Source of the DNA: Marinobacter alexandrii
Lineage (GTDB): Bacteria; Bacteroidota; Bacteroidia; Cytophagales; Cyclobacteriaceae
NCBI GenBank assembly: GCA_039984955.1
Contig: JBDWTN010000007.1
Coordinates: 1,558,501-1,622,500, forward strand
DNA: 64,000 nt
Direction: 5' to 3'
Shown in pieces: positions 17,157 to 24,729 of the stretch. The translations under genes and the position numbers were made by a program. Numbering within the stretch: the first letter of the stretch is position 1; every line of letters starts with the position of its first letter. The notes beneath the pieces are model-generated. The model was not told the DNA's origin, ran no database searches, and worked only from the letters and a program-made list of their open reading frames with translations.

Positions 17157-18623
17157 TTAAAGACCTAGCCCGTAATGTGCCTTACTGCCATCAGGATAGA
17201 TTCCTTCAATTAGAATCCCATCCGTTCTAGGACGTTTAAAATAGTTTTGAAGATCTTGAATGTTCCTAATCTCTTCATTATCAATGCCTGTAATAATAAA
17301 CCCTTCTTTCATACGAACTTCTTTCCATTTGCCATTTCCCAACTCCCTGACTTGAACCCCACCATCAATATCCAATTCTTCTTTTAGCGCATCAGTCAAA
17401 TCGACAAAAGTCGCGCCCTCAACTTTAAAATCAGAAGCAAGCTCCACTACCTCCAATGTACCTTCTGCATTTCTTAGTTCAGCCAATACTATTTTCTCTT
17501 TTCCATTTCTGATAAACTTTACCTCAACTTGGTCTCCAGGTCTCTTTACAGCTACTTGTTCCTGAAGCTGGGCTACACTATTTACCGGCTTATCATCTAT
17601 AGCTACAATTACATCTCCTCTCTCCATACCCGCTCTATCAGCAGCTTTTCCAGCCATTACTCCATTCACGTAAATCCCTTTTAATACATTGAGATCATAT
17701 TCTTCCGCAAGCCCGGCATCCACATCCCTAATCGAAATCCCCAATAATGCTCTCTGCACCATCCCATACTCTACTAAATCACTAACTACCTTTTTTACAA
17801 GTGAAACAGGAACGGCAAATGAATATCCCGCAAATGCCCCTGAAGGGGATGCAATAGCTGTATTTATTCCTACCAATTCTCCATTGAGGTTTACCAGTGC
17901 TCCACCACTATTTCCAGGGTTTACCGCCGCATCAGTTTGGATAAAAGATTCTATTCTATAGTCTCCATTTAAGATATTTATATTTCGCCCCTTTGCACTT
18001 ATTATCCCAGCTGTGACTGTCGACCTAAATTCATACGGGTTACCAATTGCGAGCACCCATTCTCCTATATTAATATTGTCTGAATCACCGTAATTAATTG
18101 ATGTAAGATTGTTCTCATTCACTTTTAAAACGGCTAAATCAGTGCTCGCATCTGTACCTATCACCTTAGCTTGATAACTTCTATTGTCATTTAAGACAAT
18201 CTCGATCTCATCTGCATTCTCAATAACATGATTATTTGTGACGATATATCCATCAGAAGATATAATCACTCCAGATCCGGCTCCTCGTGCAGGACCTCCT
18301 CTTCGTTCGTATCGTTCACCAAAGTAGTCCTTGAAGAAATCGTTAAAAGGACTATTCGCACGCATCCCTTCTTTATAAGTAGTCCTTATATGCACAACTG
18401 AAGGTGTGGCATTTTTAGCTGCAAAAACGAAGTTTAAACCTTCCGGCACTACAAAGTCTGATGAGTCAAAGACATAGTTTGTTAAACTCACAGGGCTTGA
18501 AGTATTTCCTGTTGTTTGAATTATCCTATGGTTAGGCGCAATCAGCGAAAATCCTACGACCGCCACAATACCTCCAAAGAGTGACGAAAAAACCATGGCC
18601 ATGATAAAACTTCTCTTACTCAT
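17157..18623 (-). CDS. degQ: Do/HtrA-family serine protease with two PDZ domains
   Basis: The 488-residue envelope protease has an N-terminal signal or anchor (IMAMVFSSLFGGIVAVVGFS). Its chymotrypsin-like domain contains His132 (VTNNHVIE), Asp162 (TDLAVLKV) and Ser239 (NPGNSGGALV). Two PDZ domains follow (about residues 285-375 and 390-480). It degrades or refolds misfolded proteins in the periplasm, and its length is normal for DegP/DegQ/MucD. The next gene upstream is hsp20, so this is a small protein-quality-control neighbourhood, though a terminator lies between them. Whether it is closer to DegP or DegQ is not decidable here. Confidence 0.9.
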   Translation of the reverse strand: MSKRSFIMAMVFSSLFGGIVAVVGFSLIAPNHRIIQTTGNTSSPVSLTNYVFDSSDFVVPEGLNFVFAAKNATPSVVHIRTTYKEGMRANSPFNDFFKDYFGERYERRGGPARGAGSGVIISSDGYIVTNNHVIENADEIEIVLNDNRSYQAKVIGTDASTDLAVLKVNENNLTSINYGDSDNINIGEWVLAIGNPYEFRSTVTAGIISAKGRNINILNGDYRIESFIQTDAAVNPGNSGGALVNLNGELVGINTAIASPSGAFAGYSFAVPVSLVKKVVSDLVEYGMVQRALLGISIRDVDAGLAEEYDLNVLKGIYVNGVMAGKAADRAGMERGDVIVAIDDKPVNSVAQLQEQVAVKRPGDQVEVKFIRNGKEKIVLAELRNAEGTLEVVELASDFKVEGATFVDLTDALKEELDIDGGVQVRELGNGKWKEVRMKEGFIITGIDNEEIRNIQDLQNYFKRPRTDGILIEGIYPDGSKAHYGLGL

Positions 18624-18754
18624 ATCTTCTTCAATTTTTTACTTATGATTTATACTCCATAAAGACACTTTTAGTTTTCATTCTGTGGAAAAACACTAAA
18701 AGGATTAACTATTCTTAACAAAAGATAGGTGCTGATTAAACTCCTTCCATTTTC

Positions 18755-18788
18755 AAAAAAAAGGGCATCCGCCTACTGGCGGACACCC
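18755..18788 (-). terminator. Intrinsic terminator of hsp20
   Basis: On the - strand GGGTGTCCGCC pairs with GGCGGATGCCC around the loop AGTA (18763-18788), followed by eight Ts (18755-18762 as A on the + strand). It lies 20 bases after the hsp20 stop. Confidence 0.85.
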
Positions 18789-18808
18789 CAAATCACCTAC
18801 TCAAAACA

Positions 18809-19237
18809 CTACTTAACTACTATCTGTTTTTTTGCTGACTTCTTTTCATCCTTTGGTAAAAGAATGGTCAAAATTCCATCTTGATATGAAGCATCTACTT
18901 TTTCTTTGTCTACCAAATCTGGTAAATAGAACGTTCTATTAAATGATCCATAGTAACTCTCCACACTGTGGAAGTTTTTTTCCTTCTTCTCGTTCTCAAA
19001 TTTTCTTTCTCCACTTATTGTAATTTGATCTTTATTAAGATCAATATTGAAATCACCCTTCTTCATTCCTGGCACATGCAACTGAATCTCAAATTCTTTT
19101 TCAGATTCAGCAATATCCACCTTAGGTGAAAACTTAGGTACAGTGCCTCCTACTAATTCATCAGTAAAAAAATCATCAACAAGACTTTTAAAACTTGTCG
19201 GTCTGTAGTCGTTTCTATTGTACTTTATAAGTCCCAT
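18809..19237 (-). CDS. Hsp20 / alpha-crystallin small heat-shock protein
   Basis: The 142-residue cytosolic chaperone has an alpha-crystallin domain from about residue 38 to 130 (PKVDIAESEKEFEIQLHVPG, ITISGERKFE, SFNRTFYLPDLVDKEKVDAS, YQDGILTILLPK). It ends in a short tail that lacks a clear IxI motif; the end is KKQIVVK. It holds unfolding proteins as oligomers during stress. Two 21-base direct repeats upstream (19317-19379) are candidates for its control. Length and layout are normal. Confidence 0.9.
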   Translation of the reverse strand: MGLIKYNRNDYRPTSFKSLVDDFFTDELVGGTVPKFSPKVDIAESEKEFEIQLHVPGMKKGDFNIDLNKDQITISGERKFENEKKEKNFHSVESYYGSFNRTFYLPDLVDKEKVDASYQDGILTILLPKDEKKSAKKQIVVK

Positions 19238-19870: not shown

Positions 19871-20287
19871 TTGGATCATAAACCACTACAACTCTTGGGA
19901 ACTTTTCAAAAGGTACTACTTGTCGACGATGATGATATCGTCAATTCTATAAACTCAGTTATCATCAAGCATGCAAAGTTTGCTACTGAAGTAGAATCAA
20001 TTAATAATGTGCAAACAGCCATTGATTTTTTGAAAACCACAGGGGATACTCCTGACGTGATTTTCTTGGATTTAAATATGCCTGGTTTAGATGGTTGGGA
20101 TTTTATGGAAGAGTATGAAAAGTTAAATATCACGGACGGCACTAAAGTTATTATGTTGACATCCTCCATATCTGCTAAAGATGAAGAACGGGCTTCCTCT
20201 TCCAAGCAAATTGCCGCTTTTATTTCTAAACCGCTTTCCCCAGAGTTGTTAGAAAAAATTTACAGTAGTCATCTGATAAGTTCCTAG
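19871..20287 (+). CDS. Stand-alone response-regulator receiver protein
   Basis: The 138-residue protein is a single CheY-like receiver domain with no output domain. The acidic pocket is VDDDD (18-22), the phospho-acceptor is Asp67 (VIFLDLNMPGLDGWDF), the switch residue is Thr97 (IMLTSS) and the conserved Lys is Lys120 (FISKPL). TTG at 19871 is the only sensible start. It overlaps the 3' end of the kinase-like gene by four bases (shared CTAG), tail to tail. It probably receives phosphate from the neighbouring signalling pair or passes it on to another His protein. Confidence 0.85.
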   Translation: MDHKPLQLLGTFQKVLLVDDDDIVNSINSVIIKHAKFATEVESINNVQTAIDFLKTTGDTPDVIFLDLNMPGLDGWDFMEEYEKLNITDGTKVIMLTSSISAKDEERASSSKQIAAFISKPLSPELLEKIYSSHLISS

Positions 20288-21810
20288 TTCAGACGTAAAG
20301 CAAATGTGGCTCCTTTCCGAGGCTCGCTCTCTACCCTAATTCCGCCTCGGTGATAATCCATGATTGTTTTAATGATGTAAAGGCCTAGGCCAGCTCCTTC
20401 CACATGTGAGTGTAATCGTGAATAAGGCCTGAATATTTCTTCTTTAAACTTGATCGAATCAAAACCTAAACCATTGTCTTTAATAATTAGTGTAGTATGC
20501 GAATTGACTTCTTTGGTCTTGATTTTTATTTGAAGAGGTTTTTCAGGGTCTCTGTAAGACAGGGCATTTGATATTAAATGCTTTAATACCACTTTCAACT
20601 GTGCTTTTGGATAGGCAATAGTGGGGCATTCTGAAAAATCTTTTTTTATAATGGCATTTGCACTTTTAATCTTACTTAAAGAATTGGAAACTACCTCTTT
20701 AAGAACCTCATCAATATCTAGAAGCTCTTTATCTGCACCAAGTTCTTCTCGCACTTTGTTTACCTCAACAAGCGCATGTACAATCTTTTCTAATTGTTGA
20801 TTTGTCTTCCTAGCGTTGTTAAGTATTGCTTTAAAGTTAGAAGGGTTCACGTTTTCTTTCCCTAGCATCTCTAATAGAGATCCAAGGTTAGTTATAGGAG
20901 CTTTCAGGTCATCCGCAGTGCTGTACGAAAAATGAATAAACCTATCTATCTCTTCTTGTGAGTATCGCAAGCGATCTGCCATTTCATTAAAGGAGTTAAC
21001 AATGTCACTTGTTATGCTGTTTGAACTCAGCTTTATTCTTGCATCCAGATTGCCATCACCAATTCTTTCTGCACCCGATCTTATATCCTCCAACGGGCGC
21101 CATATTTTATAGCTAAAAGTGTAAACGGCAAGCAAGGAAAGAATGATGAAAAGAAGAGTGAGTGTTACAATCCACTTCATTGAAAGCACTTCTTCTTGCT
21201 CGACAATCTTCACCAGAGCTTCGGTAAACATTTCATGACGCATCAAAACACCTTCTACTTGTTTATTAAACTGATCCTCTTCTTGTTCTACTCTTTCTGA
21301 CACAAAAACTGCTTCTTCCAGCCGACCTTCCTCCAGAAGATTTACAACTTCTATTGCATGGTTTTCATAGCTAGTATGATCACTTGCAAGCTTCTTAATT
21401 GATAATAACAAGCCTTTCAATTTGATTCTCTGAGCCTCTTGATTTGTCCGCTTTAATGCTTCTGAAACTTCGTTTTCTGCCTCCAGTAAGTCGATATCCA
21501 CAAGCTGCGCTAAATATCTAAAAGTACTATCTGCCAAAGCAAACCCTCTTAGAGCTGCATCATTCCCTGGAGCCATTTCTTCTGAATAACGAATAGCACG
21601 CTCAAAATTGATCGCCTGCTCAAGTTGGTTTGTCTCTATTTGGGTAAGTATCTCGATTATTGGTAAATCGATATTAGCTACATCATCAATATCTTTATGT
21701 GTAGCTACGATTCGAAGCAACCCAAATGCCCCAAGAATCAAAATAAGGAAAATAATAAATGTACTTCTCCGAAGGATTACTTCTTTAATCCTGTTAGGTC
21801 TTCGAGTCAT
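20284..21810 (-). CDS. Membrane histidine-kinase-like protein with Asp in place of the acceptor His
   Basis: The 508-residue protein has two transmembrane helices (about 16-34 and 213-232) around a helical periplasmic sensor. A HAMP domain (about 235-285) and a DHp-like helix follow, and then a complete HATPase_c domain. The ATPase domain is intact: N-box HLISNALSY (411-419), G1 DNGLGFD (445-451), F-box EEIFRPY and G2 EGAGLGLYI (471-479). The H-box reads YSTADDLKAPI instead of the usual SHDLKAP, so position 300 is Asp (GAT) where His is expected. It should bind ATP but cannot phosphorylate itself at the usual place. It starts 18 bases after the GAF/H-box gene, and the two form an operon. Confidence 0.85.
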   Translation of the reverse strand: MTRRPNRIKEVILRRSTFIIFLILILGAFGLLRIVATHKDIDDVANIDLPIIEILTQIETNQLEQAINFERAIRYSEEMAPGNDAALRGFALADSTFRYLAQLVDIDLLEAENEVSEALKRTNQEAQRIKLKGLLLSIKKLASDHTSYENHAIEVVNLLEEGRLEEAVFVSERVEQEEDQFNKQVEGVLMRHEMFTEALVKIVEQEEVLSMKWIVTLTLLFIILSLLAVYTFSYKIWRPLEDIRSGAERIGDGNLDARIKLSSNSITSDIVNSFNEMADRLRYSQEEIDRFIHFSYSTADDLKAPITNLGSLLEMLGKENVNPSNFKAILNNARKTNQQLEKIVHALVEVNKVREELGADKELLDIDEVLKEVVSNSLSKIKSANAIIKKDFSECPTIAYPKAQLKVVLKHLISNALSYRDPEKPLQIKIKTKEVNSHTTLIIKDNGLGFDSIKFKEEIFRPYSRLHSHVEGAGLGLYIIKTIMDYHRGGIRVESEPRKGATFALRLN

Positions 21811-21828
21811 GGTAGGTAGGTAAAAGCC

Positions 21829-22617
21829 CTAATCTAATTCAATTTTGGCGGTCATCACACGAATTGCATCATCTAAATTCATTGTTTCTAATTTCAATTG
21901 CTGCAGAAGCTCTTCGTATGTCTCCCGACTTTCCCAATTTAATTTAATCAAATCTATCAATGCCAAAATAGTAGACAGAGGATGCCTGATGGTATGTGAT
22001 GTATAAAAAGCATGATCAGATAGTTTTTTGGCAAGTTTTTCTTTCTCTTTTTCCTCAATCTTCAAAGTACTTAACTCGTTTCTGTGTAGAAAGTCTTCCT
22101 TGAGGCGCAACAATGCGTCGTAACATTGACTAATCATTGAAGCTGATGTCAACAAAACAAATTGATCTCGTTCAATAAAATCCTTCTTTGTTTTCCACTC
22201 TACCGTAATGACTCCAAAAAGTCTGTTATCATTCCACACTTGAAAACTCGCCCATGAGGTGAGTCGATTCTTAATTAAGTGGTCAAGTGTTAGTTCTTCT
22301 AACGCTGGATTATCATCAGTACTGTCAACGTGTATTGATTGCTCAGCCTTCAAGAGTTTTATGAAGTTTGGAAATGTTGATGCATCCAGTGCTTTACCAG
22401 AAGAAGACTCCTCCGTTTCTGCATTGAAACTTTGAATGCTTTCAAATTCATCCTTTTCATTTCTATAAAGCCAAAAAGATGTCTTATAAGCACTTAGCGA
22501 TCTACAAACAGTCGGAATGAGCTCTGAAATAAAATCTTTGAATTTCCCACTCAGCAATGGTTCAGACATTGCCATTTTCATAAAAGATTCGATTCTATTG
22601 TCTTTAGTTTCACTCAT
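21829..22617 (-). CDS. GAF-domain protein with an H-box helix but no ATPase domain
   Basis: The 262-residue cytosolic protein has a GAF-like domain (about residues 20-170; FWLYRNEKDEFESIQSFNAE, WASFQVWNDNRLFGVITVEW). A coiled coil follows (173-200), then a DHp-like pair of helices containing SHTIRHPLSTILALIDLIKL. His208 sits exactly where a histidine-kinase acceptor would be. The protein ends at residue 262, just after the second DHp helix, so there is no catalytic ATPase domain. It is the first gene of an operon with the kinase-like gene, which has the ATPase but lacks the His. Bacteroidota carry other sensor proteins that end after an H-box, so this one may also act as a phosphotransfer or dimer partner. 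Confidence 0.8.
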   Translation of the reverse strand: MSETKDNRIESFMKMAMSEPLLSGKFKDFISELIPTVCRSLSAYKTSFWLYRNEKDEFESIQSFNAETEESSSGKALDASTFPNFIKLLKAEQSIHVDSTDDNPALEELTLDHLIKNRLTSWASFQVWNDNRLFGVITVEWKTKKDFIERDQFVLLTSASMISQCYDALLRLKEDFLHRNELSTLKIEEKEKEKLAKKLSDHAFYTSHTIRHPLSTILALIDLIKLNWESRETYEELLQQLKLETMNLDDAIRVMTAKIELD

Positions 22618-22667: not shown

Positions 22668-23087
22668 CTATTTTGCGAAAATCTGAGCATCATCCTTAAA
22701 AGATTTAAACTCTAGCGCATTTCCAGAAGGATCCATAAAAAACATGGTTGCTTGCTCACCCACCTCGTCTTCAAATCTGACATATGGTTCAATAATGAAC
22801 TCTATTCCTGCATCTTTAAGTTTTTCCGCAAGATCATCCCAATCACTTCTGCTTAAAACCACACCAAAATGAGGCACAGGAACTGCCTTGCCGTCAACAG
22901 GATTAGTTTCCGCATCTCGCTTATTTTCAACCATATGGATTACAAATTGATGTCCATATAAATTGAAGTCTACCCAGCAATCAGAAGATCTACCCTCTTC
23001 AAGGCCCATTATATCCCGGTAAAAACTTCTTGTCTGATCCAATTCTTTTACAGGAACAGCTAAATGAAAAGGTCTTAAATTATTCAT
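22668..23087 (-). CDS. VOC-family (glyoxalase-like) protein
   Basis: The 139-residue protein has two beta-alpha-beta-beta-beta units of the vicinal oxygen chelate fold. Likely metal ligands are His8 (RPFHLAVPV), His in VPHFGVVLS and Glu in GNALEFKSF. The motif [13 protein letters not shown] is typical of the family. Substrate unknown; relatives include glyoxalases, dioxygenases and resistance proteins. It lies 16 bases before the pruA stop on the same strand, so it is probably co-transcribed as the downstream gene of pruA. Confidence 0.8.
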
Positions 23088-23103
23088 GAGGAAAGCGTTT
23101 TAA

Positions 23104-24729
23104 TTAACCAAGAAAAGGATATCTGTAATCAGTAGGGGAAACAAAAGTTTCTTTAATGGTTCTTGCACTAACCCAACGCATGAGGTTCATCATTGCTCCC
23201 GCTTTATCGTTTGTGCCAGAACCTCGCGCACCACCAAATGGCTGTTGGCCTACTACAGCCCCTGTAGGTTTATCGTTGATGTAAAAATTACCTGCTGCGT
23301 TTCTTAGTTTTTTAGTAGCAACGTCCACTGCGTATCTATCCTTACTGAAAATAGCTCCGGTTAGTGCATAAGGAGATGTCTCGTCCACGATACTTAAGAT
23401 TTCCTCAAACTTATCTGCATCATATACATGAATGGTAAGCACTGGTCCAAAAATCTCCTCACACATTGTTGTGTACTTAGGGTCTTTCGCTACAAAAACT
23501 GTCGGCTCAACGAACCATCCTTTAGTGTCATCATAATTGCCTCCAGCAACTAATTCTACATCTTTATCGGTTTTTGCTTGCTCTATGTAACCCGAGATCT
23601 TTTTGAACGCAACACCATCTATCACAGCATTTACAAAGTTTGACGGATCTTCAGGAGAGCCCATTTTGATTGATTTTAAATCTTCAATCATGTATTTCTT
23701 AACATCTTCCCAAATGTTTGATGGAATATATGCTCTAGATGCTGCACTGCATTTCTGACCCTGAAACTCAAATGATCCTCTTACTAAGCCAGTAGCCACT
23801 TCTTTTGCATCCGCAGATCTATGAGCTACTACAAAGTCTTTTCCTCCTGTTTCTCCTACTATTCTTGGATACGTTCTATATGAATCAAGATTAGCTCCAA
23901 TGGTTTTCCAAAGTGTTTTAAAAACCCCTGTACTTCCTGTGAAATGAAGTCCTGCAAAATCTCTGTGGTTAAATACGACATCTCCTGCTACAGGACCATC
24001 CACATAGATCAGATTGATTACTCCATCAGGGAGTCCTGCCTTTTTGAAGACTTCCATTATTACTTGTGCCGAATATACTTGTGTATAGCTCGGTTTCCAC
24101 ACAACAGTGTTTCCTAACATTGCTGGAGCCGCTGGGAGGTTTCCCGCAATGGCTGTAAAGTTGAATGGAGTGATGGCGAAAATAAAGCCCTCTAATGGTC
24201 TATACTCCAACCTATTCCATATCCCTTCTGATGATATAGGTTGCTGCATATACAATTCTTGCATAAAAGAAACATTGAACCGAAGGAAGTCAATGAATTC
24301 GCAAGCAGCATCAATCTCTGCCTGATGTACATTTTTTCCTTGACCAAGCATTGTCGCAGCATTCATTTTAGCTCTGTATGGCCCAGCTAATAAGTCAGCC
24401 GCCTTAAGAAAAATGCTAGCACGATTTTCCCAAGACATATTTTCCCAATCTTCTTTGGCAGATAAAGCTGCATCAATGGCCTCTGTGACATGTGAAGCAT
24501 CTCCTTCTGAAAAATGTCCTAAAACATGCTTATGATCATGAGGGCAGGTCATTGCAACCTTATTGTCTGTATGCACCTCTTTGTCACCAATAAACATCGG
24601 AGCATTAACCTGGCTTGCATACATTTCTTTGTATTTAGCCAATAATTCTTCTCGAGCAGGAGTGCCCGGGGCATAGCTCAATATAGGCTCATTGATTGGG
24701 TCTGGTATGAAAAAATTTCCTTTAGGCAT
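23104..24729 (-). CDS. pruA: L-glutamate gamma-semialdehyde dehydrogenase (P5C dehydrogenase)
   Basis: The 541-residue enzyme is a full-length aldehyde dehydrogenase of the P5CDH group. It has IFAITPFNFTAIAGNLPAAP in the NAD-binding domain, VGETGGKDFV with the general-base Glu, and the catalytic Cys in FQGQKCSAASRAYIP. The C-terminal GQQPFGGARGSGTNDKAG loop is typical of the family. It oxidises glutamate semialdehyde to glutamate, the second step of proline breakdown. No proline dehydrogenase domain or gene is attached, so that step is encoded elsewhere. Confidence 0.92.
   Translation of the reverse strand: MPKGNFFIPDPINEPILSYAPGTPAREELLAKYKEMYASQVNAPMFIGDKEVHTDNKVAMTCPHDHKHVLGHFSEGDASHVTEAIDAALSAKEDWENMSWENRASIFLKAADLLAGPYRAKMNAATMLGQGKNVHQAEIDAACEFIDFLRFNVSFMQELYMQQPISSEGIWNRLEYRPLEGFIFAITPFNFTAIAGNLPAAPAMLGNTVVWKPSYTQVYSAQVIMEVFKKAGLPDGVINLIYVDGPVAGDVVFNHRDFAGLHFTGSTGVFKTLWKTIGANLDSYRTYPRIVGETGGKDFVVAHRSADAKEVATGLVRGSFEFQGQKCSAASRAYIPSNIWEDVKKYMIEDLKSIKMGSPEDPSNFVNAVIDGVAFKKISGYIEQAKTDKDVELVAGGNYDDTKGWFVEPTVFVAKDPKYTTMCEEIFGPVLTIHVYDADKFEEILSIVDETSPYALTGAIFSKDRYAVDVATKKLRNAAGNFYINDKPTGAVVGQQPFGGARGSGTNDKAGAMMNLMRWVSARTIKETFVSPTDYRYPFLG

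Follow-up and report, generated by a model that had tools for sequence, protein, structure and literature searches.

A candidate histidine kinase divided between an Asp-substituted membrane protein and a GAF protein without an ATPase domain in Cyclobacteriaceae

The K-G-R locus

The window analysed here is a stretch of 64,000 nucleotides from Marinobacter alexandrii (GTDB family Cyclobacteriaceae, phylum Bacteroidota; contig JBDWTN010000007.1, positions 1,558,501 to 1,622,500), and our subject is a group of three adjacent genes in it, here called K, G and R, among which the parts of a two-component system are distributed. G lies upstream of K on the same strand, 18 bases away, and R, on the plus strand, runs toward K. 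The features are as follows, in window coordinates.

20284 to 21810, minus strand: K, a membrane protein of 508 amino acids with an N-terminal helical region, HAMP, DHp-like and HATPase_c domains (list of open reading frames (ORFs), Pfam)
Within K, minus strand: two hydrophobic stretches, seen by eye, in the N-terminal helical region
20965 to 21111, minus strand: HAMP domain of K, residues 234-282 (Pfam)
20731 to 20952, minus strand: DHp-like helices of K, residues 287-360 (16-row alignment)
20911 to 20913, minus strand: codon 300 of K, GAT (Asp), where the acceptor His would stand (letters, alignment to solved kinases)
20290 to 20601, minus strand: HATPase_c domain of K, residues 404-507 (Pfam, 16-row alignment)
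21829 to 22617, minus strand: G, 262 amino acids, GAF plus a C-terminal DHp hairpin without ATPase (ORF list, Pfam, model, Foldseek)
22123 to 22542, minus strand: GAF domain of G, residues 26-165 (bounds from the AlphaFold2 model)
21832 to 22065, minus strand: DHp hairpin of G, residues 185-262, the best-conserved part of G (alignment, model)
21994 to 21996, minus strand: codon 208 of G, His, the sole H-box His of the K-G pair (letters, 12-row alignment)
19871 to 20287, plus strand: R, a stand-alone receiver with Asp67 and a called TTG start (ORF list, Pfam)
20284 to 20287, unstranded: CTAG, common to the stop codons of K (minus) and R (plus) (letters)

An earlier note, made from the letters and the ORF list, had described this locus as a histidine kinase split over two proteins with a separate receiver. 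Its ORFs, strands, lengths and 18-base gap agree with ours; D300 (GAT), H208 and D67 stand at the residues it named, and K and R do meet in a common CTAG. Its division of domains also held: HAMP, a DHp-like region and an intact ATPase domain in K, GAF and a DHp with His208 but no ATPase domain in G, and a lone receiver in R.

In K, HATPase_c scores 62.7 bits against a Pfam cut-off of 26.4 and HAMP 36.1 bits against 25, with HisKA under its cut-off (21.0 against 26.9 bits); R matches Response_reg with a score of 67.3. The ATPase motifs of HATPase_c are named N, G1 and G2, and all of them are present in K. In G, both GAF_2 (20.8 bits, cut-off 28.6) and HisKA (17.6 bits, cut-off 26.9) remain under threshold, Pfam matches neither an ATPase domain nor a receiver domain, and the protein ends 54 residues past His208. 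At E values up to 1, Pfam matched no Hpt (P1) or CheW-like (P5) domain in either K or G. That G has a GAF fold, a point left open by Pfam, is supported by an AlphaFold2 model (23-row alignment; mean predicted local distance difference test (pLDDT) 86.2, predicted template modelling score (pTM) 0.63) and by its best Foldseek matches in the PDB, which are GAF and phytochrome structures. The model consists of a GAF-like domain, a long helix (149-226) that carries His208 and a second helix (231-261), after which the protein ends; as modelled, the two helices are a complete DHp hairpin. Thus the ATPase domain is found in K, which has no usable acceptor His, Asp300 standing where HisKA kinases have the phosphorylatable His of the H-box, and the acceptor His is found in G, on the DHp hairpin of a protein that lacks an ATPase domain.

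Conservation of the acceptor position and of the K-G linkage

K was searched for in 390 genomes of the family, that of the window included, of which 13 match at E <= 1e-50. Twelve hold a full-length orthologue of at least 56% identity, and the thirteenth (G063) matches the kinase core only; the orthologue of Ekhidna lutea (L037) is 83% identical to K of the window. A search of genome contigs with K returned 40 loci, one the E. lutea orthologue and the other 39 partial matches of 21-38% identity. At the level of the order, where scoring was limited to the five best candidates of each genome, only the window's own row among the matches listed in a K profile search reaches upstream of model position 174, a part that makes up most of the N-terminal sensor.

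In each of the three displayed phmmer alignments of K to solved kinases, Asp300 falls opposite the acceptor His; within this genome such a residue is unusual. There are 87 HATPase places, and the count covers the 60 strongest (27 others lie outside it), which comprise one gyrase B-like and one CheA-like place (both by eye), K, and 57 other DHp-type kinases, every one of which has an H-box His (52 by pattern, four by eye and one on a further reading). K is the only one of the 58 DHp-type kinases read that has no acceptor His. Across the 12 orthologues the position is Asp in four (ADDLKAP, in the window, E. lutea, G106 and G230), Asn in one (ANDLKAP, in G072) and His in seven (AHDLKAP), the last form being found also in three K paralogues of genus g68; the respective codons, GAT/GAC, AAC and CAT/CAC, differ from one another in the first base. 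Because Asp recurs in four genomes, the window's among them, with both GAT and GAC codons, we rejected chance, sequencing or assembly error and recent mutation as its source. The idea that a residue other than His is fixed at this position is correct for the window's own clade (4/4) and not beyond it, where His is the residue in seven of the 12 orthologues and in all three paralogues. No G was found near these paralogues, and that all of them keep their own acceptor is in favour of the split-kinase proposal below, though three is a small sample.

Around the acceptor position, D301, K303, A304 and P305 of K are invariant in 16 of 16 rows, A304 standing at the Thr/Asn place of the phosphatase motif. 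Equally invariant are the ATPase motif residues N415, D445, G447, G449, G472, G474 and G476, and these motifs have persisted after the loss of the His. In G, His208, Arg211 and Pro213 are kept in all 12 proteins, and in 23 of 23 rows once eleven other ATPase-less DHp proteins, selected from those fetched, are added. The Asp-bearing forms of K make up a clade with tree support of 100/100. For four of the six pairs within it, the ratio of nonsynonymous to synonymous differences per site (pN/pS) is quoted rather than dN/dS, synonymous sites being saturated. By region, K has an identity of 68-89% and a pN/pS of 0.09-0.23, HATPase being the least conserved of the four regions compared (68-82%); in G, the DHp is 87-96% identical and the GAF domain 48-65%. 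Since pN/pS of K remains this low while synonymous sites are saturated, Asp300 looks kept and not drifting. A His-bearing K very probably came before the Asp and Asn forms, with the acceptor, on these comparisons, lost once or twice. The K-G pair is probably older than that loss, because seven of the 12 orthologues and all three paralogues carry His.

G is directly upstream of K in all 12 orthologue loci, with a gap of -26 to 39 bases, and on this count we rejected a chance neighbourhood of the two genes. In the reverse direction, the seven strongest matches of the G DHp profile in 196 genomes (at least 143 bits) all fall in K-bearing genomes, and the next match scores 57 bits. R is convergent with K in eight loci, all of the window's genus (8/8 K-bearing genomes there), and in these the order HAD, PruA, VOC, G, K and convergent R is the same throughout, with window genes named by eye. 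The remaining four loci, in G072 and three g68 genomes, belong to two other genera, and in fetched stretches of 11-13 kb (blastp, E 1e-8) HAD, PruA, VOC, R, Hsp20 and HtrA were all not found near G-K. Because these four of the 12 loci keep G and K together without any of the six other neighbours, the linkage is not mere synteny, and no other observation speaks as strongly for a joint action of G and K. The expectation that the whole trio would be conserved as neighbours therefore stands for G-K (12/12) and falls for R beyond the genus (8/12). Like K, R is absent from two small genomes of the window's genus (G035 and G203), and G072 has an unlinked R relative of 53% identity.

Several observations concern the surroundings of the three genes. 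Directly upstream of G, on the same strand, lie a PruA-like dehydrogenase and a VOC-like protein (by eye; window 22668-24729), with spacings of 16 and 50 bases and in the same order in 8/8 loci of the genus; perhaps this is a single operon linked to proline use. Beyond R, and read away from it, are Hsp20-like and HtrA-like genes (by eye; window 17157-19237), seen also in E. lutea and G230 (L094) and not found in the other fetched loci; R may be connected with folding stress. Two His-type relatives have another His-bearing kinase-like gene directly upstream of R on R's strand (L096:3630-4535 and L098:7000-7869), and R may have two kinase inputs there. In G072 (L095:7920-12589) the same G-K pair occurs in a different setting, near two CheY-like receivers and a protein of 871 amino acids (by eye).

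G is a member of a class of Bacteroidota DHp proteins that lack an ATPase domain. Among other loci fetched with DHp profiles, 22 of 23 in the family encode proteins that end at most 31 residues past the DHp, as do 27 of 30 fetched across the phylum, where 42 of 247 genomes have a profile match; these loci are the top matches of profiles built from such proteins, and the fractions are not unbiased frequencies. One protein (L262) is classed as ATPase-less by length alone, its H-box pattern not being found, and one gene of this genome appears both as L158 and, in the phylum set, as L235. Seven family proteins that were scanned have TPR front domains in three cases, GAF in two (one with PAS) and none recognised in two. 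Seven of eight phylum proteins scanned with Pfam read as REC-PAS-HisKA, and the eighth (L245) only as REC, its reading frame having been taken short so that Pfam saw only the receiver. Among the 27 phylum loci a receiver gene is immediately downstream in ten and upstream in seven, and a HATPase ORF lies within 1.5 kb in five; the receiver of L240 is counted although its longest reading starts inside the preceding gene, and it was left out of the 29-row receiver tree used below. None of the 22 family loci has a neighbouring receiver or HATPase ORF within 1.5 kb.

Further members of this class occur in the window's genome outside the window, one GAF-PAS-DHp (L157:601-1776; 391 amino acids) and one TPR-DHp (L158:1474-3021; 515 amino acids), both ATPase-less. 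In other Bacteroidota (L252:28-2140, L245, L246, L243, L253 and L254) a compact operon consists of a receiver, an ATPase-less REC-PAS-DHp protein of about 340 amino acids and another receiver. A HATPase kinase stands just before it on the same strand in L245 and L252, and one also precedes the DHp gene in L244 and L250. These operons look like a phosphorelay split over several genes.

Proposed working of the pair and its rivals

Histidine kinases are for the most part self-phosphorylating homodimers, a pattern from which the K-G pair would depart. We propose, with a probability of about 0.58, that K and G constitute a split histidine kinase in which His208 of G is phosphorylated in trans by the ATPase domain of K, the phosphate then going from G to R. 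This is the simplest reading because the ATPase domain of K needs a His, its own is gone, and G keeps an invariant His without having an ATPase domain. K would sense at the membrane and supply the ATPase domain, and G would sense in the cytoplasm through its GAF domain and supply the phosphoacceptor DHp. The DHp regions of the two would most likely pair as a mixed bundle, within which K would phosphorylate His208, and G would then hand the phosphate on to Asp67 of R. Since K is without an acceptor of its own, there would be no output unless both proteins, and with them both inputs, took part. K-G pairing, phosphorylation of His208 and transfer to R are steps that we infer from the domains, residues and gene linkage described above. 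In the His-bearing relatives, K could phosphorylate itself as well, and the same complex could carry two acceptors. A more extended account can be offered tentatively, at somewhat less than even odds: G joined K first, one or two later losses (His to Asn or Asp) removed the acceptor of K, and the system is now an AND gate of membrane and cytoplasmic signals, G standing for a large class of sensor-DHp proteins in Bacteroidota that receive phosphate from kinases whose genes lie elsewhere.

Several observations weigh against the split-kinase proposal. The earlier note had named mostly His-bearing homologues of K as evidence that would speak against it, and this is in part what is found (7/12 orthologues, 3/3 paralogues); it counts against the simple form of the proposal, as G does not just stand in for a missing acceptor in every one of these systems. 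A common loss of His in the Asp and Asn lineages is not rejected, a tree that holds their rows together costing 2.3 log units with a p value in the approximately unbiased test of 0.31 for K and 0.30 for K plus G, so that the independence of two losses is unproven. R is less tightly bound to the pair than G is, adjoining it in only eight of 12 loci, and the three K-bearing g68 genomes contain no R relative above background (best 36-38% identity). In 12/12 G proteins His208 is followed by Thr, Ser or Asn, not by the Glu or Asp usual in HisKA kinases, where that residue is the general base; such a residue could slow phosphorylation and speaks against the usual HisKA chemistry. That most ATPase-less DHp proteins have no adjoining kinase sets K-G apart, yet it also shows that such proteins need no neighbouring kinase. 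A model of the G and K genes read through as one chain was uninformative (pTM 0.38, with the pLDDT of the G DHp mostly below 50).

Among other explanations, G might be a phosphorelay intermediate like Spo0B, ChpT or PhyT, with His208 taking phosphate from a receiver and K acting elsewhere. Spo0B and ChpT retain a degenerate ATPase domain. The available text of PMC5898713 describes degenerate kinases that serve as phosphotransferases, and in other Bacteroidota a receiver follows the ATPase-less DHp gene directly in 10 of 27 phylum loci, six of the seven REC-PAS-DHp proteins read by Pfam also having a separate receiver gene upstream. G, however, has no receiver domain, the locus has a single receiver gene, and no receiver adjoins any of the 22 family-level loci. 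R is not of the kind found in those operons either: its membership in the clade of receivers behind ATPase-less DHp proteins was rejected, the 29-row tree grouping it with receivers behind full-length kinases (support 85/73). A relay would moreover leave the conserved ATPase domain of K without a substrate, and we consider it unlikely. Also rather improbable is that K is a pseudokinase or allosteric partner, which binds ATP and G and transfers nothing while another kinase phosphorylates G. DivL, which has Tyr in place of the acceptor His, is such an allosteric partner, of CckA. The Asp or Asn at the acceptor site of K is in keeping with this role, though it is not the Tyr of DivL, and DivL (4q20) is among the 38 solved sequences that K matches, though far from the best of them. 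Set against it are the conserved ATPase motif residues of K and the fact that most of its orthologues are ordinary His-bearing kinases; nor did blastp at 1e-4 find a second K-like kinase in the stretches fetched from E. lutea, G106 and G230.

It is very unlikely that K acts mainly as a phosphatase on phosphorylated R or G. The acceptor His is dispensable for phosphatase activity in some kinases, NarX being an example in the available text of PMC5231405, but the HE/DxxT/N motif is absent from both proteins, K having Ala304 in 16/16 rows and G reading H-T/S/N-x-x-H/S/R in 12/12. Recent decay of a dispensable gene is extremely unlikely, although it would agree with the low identity of HATPase, lowest among the four K regions compared in the Asp clade. 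Asp is fixed in four species with saturated synonymous sites, the regions compared are under purifying selection and the trio is intact in all four; by this conservation, gene decay of K is largely refuted.

Relation to known systems

Rv0600c/Rv0601c is a HisKA-type kinase in two adjacent genes, in which the membrane protein carries the His and its partner the ATPase domain; in K-G this assignment is reversed. According to the available text of PMC9274095, the two kinases cooperate with TcrA. Spo0B, ChpT and PhyT resemble G as degenerate kinases that carry a His, but they take their phosphate from a receiver and PhyT, like the other two, keeps a degenerate ATPase domain (PMC5898713, available text, for PhyT), whereas G ends after its DHp and has a GAF sensor.

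Of the CheA-type split kinases, the earlier note had drawn the parallel to CheA3/CheA4-CheY6 of Rhodobacter sphaeroides. The likeness is sound in that kinase and phosphoacceptor are on separate polypeptides and act with a response regulator (PMC3591291, as far as its available text goes). The architecture differs, CheA3/CheA4 having the P1 acceptor and P3/P4 of CheA and K-G having HAMP and GAF with DHp. CheA3 is also a phosphatase, and neither K nor G contains the HE/DxxN/T motif, so that K-G lies outside the motif rule for bifunctional split kinases as the available text of the same paper defines it. Hik36/Hik43-Rre6 of Synechocystis is likewise a split kinase, backed by two-hybrid results and mutants, and is of the CheA type, unlike K-G (PMC7656254, available text). 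ATPase-less HisKA proteins have already been counted, at 3.66% of HisKA proteins without HATPase (SMART; PMC3591291, available text). A literature search that covered few subscription journals found no paper on the K-G-R trio or on the ATPase-less DHp proteins of Bacteroidota.

Compared with known split kinases, K-G-R differs in having a DHp partner without any ATPase domain, a kinase whose acceptor His is replaced by Asp or Asn, and naturally occurring intermediate forms. The His, Asn and Asp forms are natural before-and-after states of one system, which makes the evolution of a split kinase directly testable, and the pair gives a way into the question of why DHp proteins that lack an ATPase occur in Bacteroidota. 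By analogy, K-G-R would be a functionally split kinase like CheA3/CheA4 and Hik36/Hik43, with its closest counterpart in FasB/FasC-FasA of group A Streptococcus, so that parallels based on DHp and not on CheA are already in print. In the available text of PMC12675982, two DHp-type sensors form a heterodimer by two-hybrid, the ATPase of one is proposed to phosphorylate the His of the other and then the response regulator, and the kinase domain of the partner is dispensable. We liken the systems by function as that paper describes it, not by sequence: both would use two DHp sensor proteins, the ATPase of one serving the His of the other, together with a response regulator. On the same text, FasC keeps a kinase-like domain where G has its ATPase missing outright, FasB keeps His residues in its DHp where K has Asp or Asn at the acceptor position, and FasA has a DNA-binding output where R is a receiver alone.

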